From contig JADHVE010000003.1 in the NCBI GenBank assembly GCA_016784195.1, forward strand, positions 1 to 37,871: DNA of 37,871 nucleotides, in the 5' to 3' direction. Each line of letters begins with the position of its first letter. Positions within the stretch are counted from its first letter, which is position 1. Positions 20,279 to 23,408 of this stretch are shown here, piece by piece. The DNA comes from Candidatus Woesearchaeota archaeon. GTDB taxonomy: Archaea; Nanobdellota; Nanobdellia; Woesearchaeales; GW2011-AR4. The notes under the pieces were generated by a model that saw nothing but the letters and a program-made list of their open reading frames with translations, searched no databases and was not told where the DNA came from. The position numbers and the translations under genes were made by a program.

Positions 20279-20698
20279 TTAAATACTCCACAAATTCAGC
20301 CCTATATCTTCATCTTTCTCTCTCTTAATTAAACCATCAACTTTCCTCAATACAATTTCTCCTGTTACGCTTATGATGCCTTCTTTCAAATGCCCGCCAA
20401 AAGCACCCATCTTCTCATCACTCAGTACAATATGAGAATGTACCAAAACCTCCCCATCTAATTGAGTTACATTCCCGCTGATATTAGCTATTTCCAGGTC
20501 TTTCTTTATGTTATTTTCAGAATATTCTTTTGTGGTGGTATCAAATATACTCAGAGTAACATTATCTACTGCACCTATTCCATTAAAAAATCCTAATTTT
20601 ATATTTTCCTTTTTACACATTTCTGTAATCTCTTCTATTATCTTATCTCCTTTCTCCAGCTTTATGCAGTAATGCTCTCCAAATTTTTTATATTTCAT
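20279..20698 (-). CDS. PPC-domain (DUF296) protein
   Basis: The 139-residue protein is a stand-alone PPC (plant and prokaryote conserved) domain: LGFFNGIGAVDNVTLSIFD near the start and VLVHSHIVLSDEKMGAFGGH with H87, H89 and H103, the putative metal-binding site. Family members form trimers and are linked to DNA binding when fused to AT-hooks, though bare domains are uncharacterised. Its ATG overlaps the stop of the preceding membrane regulator (ATGA), so the two are co-translated and probably act together. Confidence 0.9.
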   Translation of the reverse strand: MKYKKFGEHYCIKLEKGDKIIEEITEMCKKENIKLGFFNGIGAVDNVTLSIFDTTTKEYSENNIKKDLEIANISGNVTQLDGEVLVHSHIVLSDEKMGAFGGHLKEGIISVTGEIVLRKVDGLIKREKDEDIGLNLWSI

Positions 20699-21435
20699 CT
20701 TAAAATAAGGATATTTCCCCTCCCTTTTTTAATCTTTCTTATCCTGCCATTAGCTTCCAGCTCAGCAATTACCAGGCTTATCTTTGCCTCAGACAGTGGG
20801 ATCTTTTTCCTTATCTCTTTCTGTGTTGTTCTCCCACCTTCTTCTTTTATCATCTCAATAACCTTCTCAGCTAGATTCTCTAAATAAAAATCATACCTTT
20901 CCTTTTTTTCTTCTTTTTCATCTTCTCCCCCTTTTGTTATCTCCTCAGCCTTTTCTTCAAAAGAATCTTCCTTTTCAATTACCTCCCTCTTCTTTACACT
21001 CTTTTTTTTATTATAAAAATAAAATAATATCCCTGCCAAAATAATTAAAACAACAGAAAAACTGCCGATATTAAACCTATTCTTAGAAACCTCAATCTCA
21101 TCTTCTAATAACTCTTCCTCATTTATGACTGGAAACAGCACCAAATCCAGAATATAATCTCCATTATCCTGTACAGTTATATTCTCAGAAGTTGAAGAAA
21201 TAAGCAAAGTGCTTTCATAATGCTGCGCTTTGACTTCATAAACACCAATAGGAACTGTAAAAGAATAAGTTCCATTCTTTGAAACAAAAAATTGCTTTGG
21301 AGCAGTATTTATCTCGATAATAACATTCCCTATCCTATCCAATGAAAAATCATAGATATTTCCATGGATATTAGCCCCTAAAACAACCTCAGTCATCAAT
21401 AAAAATACAAACAATACCAACAAAAATTTCTTCAT
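20695..21435 (-). CDS. Membrane-anchored winged-helix regulator with extracellular domain
   Basis: The 246-residue protein has a signal peptide (MKKFLLVLFVFLLMTEVVLG), an extracellular beta-rich carboxypeptidase-regulatory-like domain (about 20-115), a transmembrane helix (about 125-143), a charged linker and a C-terminal winged helix (about 185-240, GGRTTQKEIRKKIPLSEAKI). This arrangement is typical of archaeal one-component membrane regulators that sense outside and bind DNA inside. The ATG at 21435 is chosen over 21456 because the TATA-like box near 21462 gives a leaderless start. It overlaps the PPC gene by 4 nt. Confidence 0.85.
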   Translation of the reverse strand: MKKFLLVLFVFLLMTEVVLGANIHGNIYDFSLDRIGNVIIEINTAPKQFFVSKNGTYSFTVPIGVYEVKAQHYESTLLISSTSENITVQDNGDYILDLVLFPVINEEELLEDEIEVSKNRFNIGSFSVVLIILAGILFYFYNKKKSVKKREVIEKEDSFEEKAEEITKGGEDEKEEKKERYDFYLENLAEKVIEMIKEEGGRTTQKEIRKKIPLSEAKISLVIAELEANGRIRKIKKGRGNILILR

Positions 21436-21613
21436 ATCAACAGTTAAGTCAGTCATAATATAAAAATGTTATGATAACTAAAAATCTCTAAAAATGCTTG
21501 TTTTAAAATAAAAAAGAGTTTCCAGCCTTAAAAACCTAAAAAAAGAGCTTATAAAGTTTTATAAAGTTTTAAAACCCCTAAAAGCCAATATATTTTTTTT
21601 AAGAGTAAGTATC

Positions 21614-21622
21614 TTTATAAAT
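21614..21622 (+). promoter_or_regulatory. TATA box of candidate small RNA
   Basis: TTTATAAAT lies about 26 nt before 21644, where a stable hairpin begins. No open reading frame of useful length starts downstream before the T-run at 21709-21722. Confidence 0.45.
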
Positions 21623-21643
21623 AAAAGCAACCATTATATCCTT

Positions 21644-21720
21644 GAATCAACTTAACAGTTGGTTCTATTCGGCTATCTTTATATTGGGGCAAACCTCGCG
21701 GTTTTGCCTTTATTTTTTTT
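21644..21720 (+). ncRNA. Candidate small structured RNA with terminator-like hairpin
   Basis: This lies in a gene-free stretch between 21436 and 21797. From the predicted start at 21644 the sequence GAATCAACT-TAAC-AGTTGGTTC folds as a 9-bp stem with one G-U pair and a tetraloop (21644-21665). A 22-nt linker follows, then GGCAAACC-TCGC-GGTTTTGCC (21688-21708, eight pairs with one bulged T), then a run of T with one A. A TATA box sits 26 nt upstream. The arrangement looks like a 77-nt independent transcript. It matches no RNA family that I recognise; transcription is inferred. Confidence 0.5.
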
Positions 21721-21797
21721 TTAAATTCTCTACTAAACTAAACTATGCAACATAAATAATAAACTATTTATACCTAACCATCTTCCATACATAAGAG

Positions 21798-23408
21798 ATG
21801 AAAAAAATCATTAAGTTAATAATTCTGGCTCTTTTTTTAGTTATCGCCCTTCCACTTGTAAATCCAGAAGAAACAAAGAATATGAAGAATACATCTCTTG
21901 ACCAGACAAACTCGCTTAAGGAAGACCTCGCTAAAGAACGGCAATTTGCAGAAATAAAAAGACAAAAACTGGAAAAAACCCAGGACTTAGAAGAAAAAAC
22001 AATAGAAGAATTCAGGATTCTAGAAAAAAACGAGCTTCAGAACATAATGAAGCTAAACGAAGAAAAACTAGTGAAACTAGCAGGGTTAAATAAATCACAA
22101 ATAAAAAAGCTTGCTGAAATCAAAGCAGTAAACCTAAGAAAAATAATCGGCTTGGATGAAAAAAAAATAAACAAAATAACTTCTCTTGACCAAGCTCAGT
22201 TGGAAAAATTATCAAATCTTGATAGGGCACGCTTAAATAAATTCTCGCAATTAAGCATCAACAGCCTAAACAAAGAACTGCAGAAATTAGAGATTAAAAA
22301 GATAAACCCTTCAGCCTTATTCAGAAAAAGGATATTAACAGAGCAAAAAATAAGAACAGCAGCAGAAAGATTTCAAGTAGCAGAACAAAACCTATTAAGC
22401 CTAAAAAAAGATTTAGATGCTGAGATAAAGCTGCTAAAAAAAGCTAAGGGAAGCAAGGATGAATTAGGAGTAAAAGAACATTCAAAAAAATACCTTTTGA
22501 CAGCAGCAGATGCTATAATAAACCATCTTGAAAAAATAAAAAGCAGGGTCCAGCAATCCCAGAATATTGATGAGGAAGAAGCATTAGAGCTTATTAAAGA
22601 TATTAACAAAAAAATACAGGAGCTTGAAGACTTGAAATCATCTGCAGAAGATATTGAAACAAAAGATGGAATAAAAAGTATAGCAAAAGACATAAATGCT
22701 GCATGGAAAAGAACAAGAATAAGCTCTGAATTCTATGTAAGATTATTAGTTAACAAAAAAATACAGGAAACCATAAAAAGATCAGAGCAGCTGGAAAAGA
22801 AACTTGACAGCATACTCGCAGAAATAGAAGAAAAAGCTTTTGAAGTTAAAAACATAGAGGAGATTTTAACAATATTCAGCGAAAAAATAGACGAAGCAAG
22901 AGAAAAACTTAAGGAATCACAGGGGAAATCCATCAAATCAAGAGCTACAGGCATTGAAGCAGACATCCAACAATTAATAATAGAGTCAAAATCTTCTTCA
23001 CAAGAATCAGAAATCCTACTAAAAGAAGCCCATAATATCTTAACAGAAATAGTAAAGGGCATAAAAGCTTTGTATCCTGCAGTGGATTTTGAAAAAGACA
23101 GGTTGGAAGAACAAATAATGATTGAAGAAAAAGAAGAAACAAGCAAAGTTAATGTTGAAATTAGAGGTTTCTTAAAAACTTCTCAGCAAACATTAGTTAA
23201 TTCTTTAATCCAGAATCTGAACCAGACAAAAACAAATGCAGAAATAGAGATAGATGCAACTGTAGAAAAAGAAAATTTAGAGCTAAAAAAAGAAATCAAA
23301 GGCACATTAACAGACCATCAAAAAATATTAGTCACTCAATTAACAGTAAGCCTTGAAGATATAGGTGAAAATGTAAAAATAAAGATTTTAGCAGGTGAAT
23401 TTGAATGA
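21798..23408 (+). CDS. Exported coiled-coil protein with 11-residue repeats
   Basis: The 536-residue protein has a signal peptide or membrane anchor at about 1-23. Residues about 72-160 form eight tandem 11-residue units of the form xLxxxxLxKLx (KLNEEKLVKLA, GLNKSQIKKLA, SLDQAQLEKLS, NLDRARLNKFS), a hendecad pattern that favours a right-handed coiled coil. Long heptad-like helices (about 170-430) follow, and a C-terminal part (about 445-536) holds two similar segments around RGFLKTSQQTLVNSL and KGTLTDHQKILVTQL. It is probably an extracytoplasmic structural protein. The lipoprotein gene downstream overlaps its stop by 4 nt, so the two are coupled. No known family is recognised. Confidence 0.75.
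   Translation: MKKIIKLIILALFLVIALPLVNPEETKNMKNTSLDQTNSLKEDLAKERQFAEIKRQKLEKTQDLEEKTIEEFRILEKNELQNIMKLNEEKLVKLAGLNKSQIKKLAEIKAVNLRKIIGLDEKKINKITSLDQAQLEKLSNLDRARLNKFSQLSINSLNKELQKLEIKKINPSALFRKRILTEQKIRTAAERFQVAEQNLLSLKKDLDAEIKLLKKAKGSKDELGVKEHSKKYLLTAADAIINHLEKIKSRVQQSQNIDEEEALELIKDINKKIQELEDLKSSAEDIETKDGIKSIAKDINAAWKRTRISSEFYVRLLVNKKIQETIKRSEQLEKKLDSILAEIEEKAFEVKNIEEILTIFSEKIDEAREKLKESQGKSIKSRATGIEADIQQLIIESKSSSQESEILLKEAHNILTEIVKGIKALYPAVDFEKDRLEEQIMIEEKEETSKVNVEIRGFLKTSQQTLVNSLIQNLNQTKTNAEIEIDATVEKENLELKKEIKGTLTDHQKILVTQLTVSLEDIGENVKIKILAGEFE

Follow-up and report, generated by a model that had tools for sequence, protein, structure and literature searches.

The element at 21644-21722 of the window (the whole 37,871-nucleotide stretch of DNA that was analysed) most probably specifies a trans-acting small RNA, with a probability that we put at about 0.85: it would belong to a new Woesearchaeales family, be transcribed from a promoter probably governed by a membrane regulator and pair with the mRNA of the S-layer protein, most likely lowering its translation. 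The conserved RNA, its structure, its genome-specific complementarity and the context of the target site are read from the sequence, and from them we infer that the RNA is transcribed under the control of the regulator and that, in the cell, it pairs with its target and has an effect on it. The window is contig C73 of G000, an archaeal MAG of 1.09 Mb in 73 contigs, of which 993 kb were covered by the genome-wide searches; most orthologues of the genes in it belong to Candidatus Woesearchaeota records. The relevant features are the following:

20695..21456, minus strand: divergent gene for a putative membrane-bound regulator (ORF, Pfam; conserved neighbour across Woesearchaeota)
21550..21573, unstranded: operator-like direct repeat TATAAAGTTT TATAAAGTTT TAAA, 5' of the TATA box (sequence)
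21614..21623, plus strand: TATA box of the RNA, TTTATAAATA (sequence; conserved in wHTH-divergent promoters)
21644..21722, plus strand: predicted small RNA of about 79 nt (sequence, folding, family model)
21644..21665, plus strand: hairpin 1, 9 bp, GAATCAACT/AGTTGGTTC with loop TAAC (folding, family comparison)
21666..21687, plus strand: single-stranded linker with the conserved GGCTATCTT at 21671-21679 (folding, conservation)
21671..21685, plus strand: putative pairing region GGCUAUCUUUAUAUU within the linker (complementarity to the S-layer 5'UTR)
21688..21708, plus strand: hairpin 2, the terminator stem, GGCAAACC-TCGC-GGTTTTGCC with one bulge (folding, covariation)
21709..21722, plus strand: T-run TTTATTTTTTTTTT, putative transcription terminator (sequence; T-runs of other members at the same place)
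21765..21772, plus strand: candidate separate promoter of the coiled-coil gene, TATTTATA (sequence only)
21798..23408, plus strand: secreted coiled-coil protein, 536 aa (ORF, Pfam)

On inspection of the sequence, a TATA box, a 9-bp hairpin, a linker, a G+C hairpin and a T-run stand in this order at 21614-21722, as an earlier note on this DNA had described, and ORF and Pfam analysis places a membrane winged-helix regulator on one side and a secreted coiled-coil gene on the other, where the note had put an envelope-sensing regulator and an envelope coiled-coil gene. The regulator comprises a signal peptide/extracellular CarboxypepD_reg-like domain, a TM segment and a cytoplasmic winged helix (DUF7343, PF24034), and a Pfam search with the coiled-coil protein gave no match; the divergent pair formed by the two genes is widespread among the 36 genomes of the family. 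Hairpin 1 starts (21644) 30 nt past the start of the TATA box. The whole RNA folds at -19.9 kcal/mol (z -3.7; 0/200 shuffles equally good), the 5' hairpin by itself has a z of -3.2, and a TTG frame is the only one that stays open across the RNA in the window. The stem quality, which the note had called unusual, is so in terms of its z-score and of the rarity of perfect hairpin and T-run sites in G000 (16 hits in 993 kb), but it is not unique by composition, the folding energy of the preceding 70 nt ranking 19th among the 921 intergenic T-runs of this genome. The element rises above chance because it is conserved, rather than by its composition. A search of Rfam 15 with the window and eight member loci, a scan that the note had proposed, returned nothing above the gathering threshold and, at lax thresholds, only chance hits. 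Box C/D and H/ACA roles were considered and rejected by eye, the C/D motifs being absent and the ACA inconsistent.

Since a plain DNA similarity search with the window element gave no more than short matches, for the most part to T-runs and TATA-like sequence, conservation was sought through the flanking genes, and 80 loci were gathered by scanning genome contigs with an alignment of the regulator. In several distant loci, the same TATA box precedes two hairpins separated by GGCTATCTT, and a T-run closes the series. By k-mer counting in 75 wHTH-divergent loci, GGCTATC, which was among the most enriched words after the Shine-Dalgarno words, occurs downstream of the same promoter in 10 loci versus 0.33 expected (two of the ten, L159 and L163, had been added through a motif match), and GGCTATCTT in 6 versus 0.02 expected. 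An RNA model, R1, built on seven seed members with the window excluded, found the window RNA with a modest score (23.8 bits, with an E of 0.016 when 60 kb were searched and of 0.14 when 540 kb were); run on the 353 genomes of the order, it gave strong hits in 16, nine of which had not contributed to the seed, under strict filters by which divergent members, including the window, are missed. In a class-wide scan with model R2, hits outside the order were weak, none of them strong. Altogether, about 25 Woesearchaeales genomes share this promoter, a linker that contains GGCUAUCUU, and a hairpin that is followed by a T-run and acts as the presumed terminator; the members have the TATA box and the T-run, and they often adjoin membrane wHTH regulators.

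Hairpin 2 is 97% paired across the family, with a covariation of 0.191 versus 0.099 in shuffled alignments (0/500), and the 5' hairpin region has a z of -2.6 or lower in eight long-form members. These two measures are less biased than the hand alignment A8, in which the arms were picked to pair and whose 100% pairing is therefore uninformative by construction. MAFFT by itself misaligned the stems, and a subset of sequences in register was taken for building the model. Compensatory changes accompany the recurrence of both hairpins, which supports reading the element as a small RNA that has a TATA box, a 5' hairpin and a terminator to itself, and the retention of the stems in relatives, which the earlier note had named as a check, was found when this check was run. 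The RNA exists in a long form, with hairpin 1 and 50-59 nt from the TATA box to the motif, and in a short form without hairpin 1, in which this distance is 29-36 nt; the 5' hairpin is not essential, being absent in families f7 and f81. In some families, the gene on the 5' side of the RNA encodes a different type of membrane regulator, also with a winged helix (ending ..WFLGKD). At the f81 loci (L176, L179, L181, L182 and related ones), the RNA lies just 3' of this second type of regulator, and a convergent small-kinase-like gene comes next, directly or past one secreted protein. Most same-family relatives of G000 lack the element. One of them, G001 (L050/L393), has two hairpins and GGCCTATCTT, without a T-run or an S-layer site, and this copy has possibly decayed.

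The linker, which the earlier note had treated as a spacer, emerges instead as the important part, complementary to the S-layer 5'UTR. Indeed, GGCUAUCUUUAUAUU (21671-21685) is the perfect 15-nt complement of the 5'UTR of an S-layer gene (G000:C55, minus strand, 4490-4476) whose product matches S_layer_C (PF05124), so that the unpaired region is complementary to the mRNA of a gene located elsewhere, on another contig. The leader of this gene contains AAAGATAGCC and GAGATAGCC in tandem, 5' of CGGAGGTG, and the 15-nt site lies 5' of the S-layer Shine-Dalgarno hairpin. Among 890 gene 5' regions, the S-layer 5'UTR ranks first both by pairing length (15, next 10) and by energy (-25.9 versus -20.5 kcal/mol for the next), and the 15-mer is unique in 993 kb, matches elsewhere, outside the RNA gene, being of at most 12 nt. 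The ranking of 890 regions, the genome-wide match and the own-versus-swapped tests described below were used in place of a shuffled S-layer UTR, which is a poor null because a 15-nt match came back in one of 5,000 shuffles. Near other starts in G000, the seed matches at Alba, over 8 nt, and weakly at a few further places. The Alba 5'UTR (L217, G000:C30, minus strand 1744) has AGATAGCC upstream of GGAGG, and the Alba mRNA is a possible second target of the RNA.

In the RNA-bearing genomes, the S-layer leader has a complement of the linker just 5' of the Shine-Dalgarno sequence. The match between a genome's own RNA and S-layer leader extends over 17 bp in G124, 16 in G048, 15 with two G-U in G348, 13 in G231, G307 (two sites) and G311 (three sites), 12 in G213, and 11 in G304 (three sites) and G041; it is of 7-8 nt only in G309, G215 and G247, and G111 and G084 have the RNA with no clear S-layer site. 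In G124 (L163) and G084 (L109), a complement, AAAGATAGCC / GAAGATAGC, also stands just past the RNA, within the 5'UTR of the coiled-coil gene that follows. RNA and leader change in a coordinated manner: the RNA reads GGCUAUAU and the UTR AUAUAGCC in G041, the RNA GGCUAUCCG and the UTR CGGAUAGCC in G304, and the own-versus-swapped test points the same way. At the family level, own pairs reach 11.35 bp versus 8.61 for swapped pairs (0/100,000 permutations); the corresponding values are 11.14 versus 8.60 in a test with 20,000 permutations (0/20,000), and with one genome per family the core-anchored extension beyond the core is 67 versus 37.2 (2/40,320, including identity). G213, G208 and G310 were picked via the target site, and their RNA was found only afterwards; two of them enter these tests, where this choice introduces a bias as to whether the core is present but none as to its flanks. 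Searching genomes selected only by their S-layer site yielded three new RNAs, and 17/17 pattern hits at translated loci are S-layer N-termini. Among the 36 same-family genomes, the site pattern is matched only by G000, and ten of these genomes whose S-layer UTR was read, all without the full element, have no site there; in f7, the altered-site pattern ATATAGCC is found in G041 only, the S-layer starts of most other f7 genomes being unreadable. Because the linker matches the start of the S-layer message species by species, the RNA probably controls the amount of coat protein.

In at least 12 genomes with a verified S-layer site, or about 16 when counted by pattern, a search for the RNA found none. 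GATAGCC was seen in S-layer leaders, with no matching RNA found, in G074, G086, G101, G125, G126, G130, G150, G151, G222, G236 and others; at the wHTH locus, G046 and G241 carry structured leaders that lack the motif. That many genomes have the site and no detected RNA would be accounted for if GGCUAUC in the RNA and GAUAGCC in the S-layer leaders were protein sites or unrelated motifs that do not pair with each other; however, the complementarity goes past the core, is genome-specific and co-varies, and we consider this explanation very improbable. It is also unlikely that the relationship runs in the reverse direction, with the abundant S-layer mRNA acting as a sponge that titrates an RNA whose real targets are elsewhere: candidates for such targets are the coiled-coil mRNAs in G124 and G084 and the Alba mRNA in G000, whose 5'UTRs contain a complement of the linker, but the S-layer sites adjoin the Shine-Dalgarno hairpin, which is a usual place for direct translational control. 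As for a functionless hairpin and T-run arising by chance in AT-rich sequence, the comparative data already contradict it, by showing the element to be conserved in many families, to covary and to match the S-layer leader of its own genome best, and make it extremely improbable even though the folding energy is not extreme in G000 (19th/921) and the element is missing from most same-family relatives.

The history of the promoter bears on a further explanation. In most same-family relatives, the shared TATA box is followed by a short 5'UTR, GGAGG and the ATG of the coiled-coil gene, with no element between; because it leads there directly to that gene, the comparison indicates that the coiled-coil gene was ancestrally transcribed from the TATA box found at 21614. 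The window differs in that a terminator stands between this old TATA box and the ATG, and a second, candidate TATA box (21765-21772) precedes the ATG at 21798, which is nearly leaderless relative to this candidate. An ancestral coiled-coil promoter is what one would expect if the element were a cis-acting 5' leader or attenuator of the coiled-coil gene, with regulated termination at the T-run and the short RNA as a by-product. An SD-led gene also follows the element in G348, G247, G084 and G231, with little room for another promoter, and in several genomes, the first three among them, the element could be an mRNA leader because it lies directly upstream of an SD-led coiled-coil gene. By contrast, the downstream gene is RtcA in G048 and G343 and a convergent gene in f7, so that no single same-strand gene or regulon lies downstream in all members; in f81 the RNA is located 3' of the regulator gene with its own TATA box, and the coiled-coil gene of the window has a TATA candidate of its own. 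As a leader or attenuator would, in addition, leave the S-layer complementarity unexplained, we hold this to be quite unlikely.

A trans-acting RNA directed at the S-layer message could work as follows. The RNA would be transcribed from the conserved TATA/operator promoter adjoining the divergent membrane-anchored winged-helix regulator, which probably controls its transcription, a proposal drawn solely from gene adjacency and the conserved promoter repeats. The operator-like repeat at 21550-21573 is conserved, the form in relatives being ATAAAGCTTTGTAAAGTTTTAAA, and we infer that the wHTH protein binds there. The transcript would end at the hairpin and oligo-U terminator, display the core GGCUAUC in its unpaired linker and pair through this linker with the S-layer 5'UTR (over 15 bp in G000, where a shorter site is also present), on the 5' side of, and at a few to about 30 nt from, the conserved Shine-Dalgarno hairpin AAACAC-GGAG-GUGUUU. 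Pairing beside this hairpin could stabilise it, resulting in repression; alternatively, it could help open the hairpin or protect the message, resulting in activation. Lowered S-layer translation is the most likely outcome, repression being slightly favoured over activation. The Shine-Dalgarno hairpin (AAACAC-GGAG-GTGTTT in the DNA; G000:C55, L242, minus, ~4425) is found in most S-layer leaders, including those of relatives without the RNA, and may be a cis control of its own.

Such a circuit would link the state of the envelope to the synthesis of the coat. On balance, we favour the idea that DPANN archaea possess a circuit running from an envelope-sensing one-component regulator through a small RNA to S-layer translation, as an independently evolved counterpart of the bacterial envelope-stress small RNAs, with the RNA and its sites gained and lost together. 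RybB, MicA and CpxQ are bacterial, Hfq-dependent small RNAs with outer- or inner-membrane targets. The Woesearchaeales RNA resembles them in its link to an envelope-sensing regulator, in its target, the 5'UTR of a major surface protein, and, for the short form, in a pairing region near the predicted 5' end; unlike it, they are bacterial, and common ancestry is not suggested. Through the circuit, the main surface protein would be connected with a membrane-bound regulator, in cells for which a life attached to hosts is assumed. As coordinated evolution in about ten families speaks for the target, it lends itself to in vitro tests that need no culture of the organism.

Within the open-access literature, surveyed mainly through titles and abstracts, we found no report of a small RNA of Woesearchaeota and none of an archaeal small RNA aimed at an S-layer mRNA; described archaeal sRNA-target pairs are few, according to one account (PMC8155600). 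The sRNA162 of Methanosarcina mazei pairs with its target mRNA through a single-stranded linker and masks the ribosome binding site (PMC3510493). The Woesearchaeales RNA would likewise be an archaeal trans-acting sRNA that pairs through a single-stranded linker, the comparison being one of mode of action only; it differs in target (a transcription-factor mRNA for sRNA162), lineage and genomic setting, and no cis-antisense domain was found in it. The s479 RNA of Haloferax volcanii, also an archaeal sRNA with a short conserved interaction sequence for its targets, differs in biogenesis and target: it is encoded in a CRISPR locus, its processing is affected by cas6, and it targets the coding region of a zinc transporter (PMC8155600). 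Finally, AAAG[CT]TTT repeats are located 5' of the TATA box of the RNA (window 21550-21573) and also 5' of the S-layer TATA box in G111 and G041 (L282, L284), and these common repeats suggest that a single regulator may act on both the RNA and the S-layer promoters.
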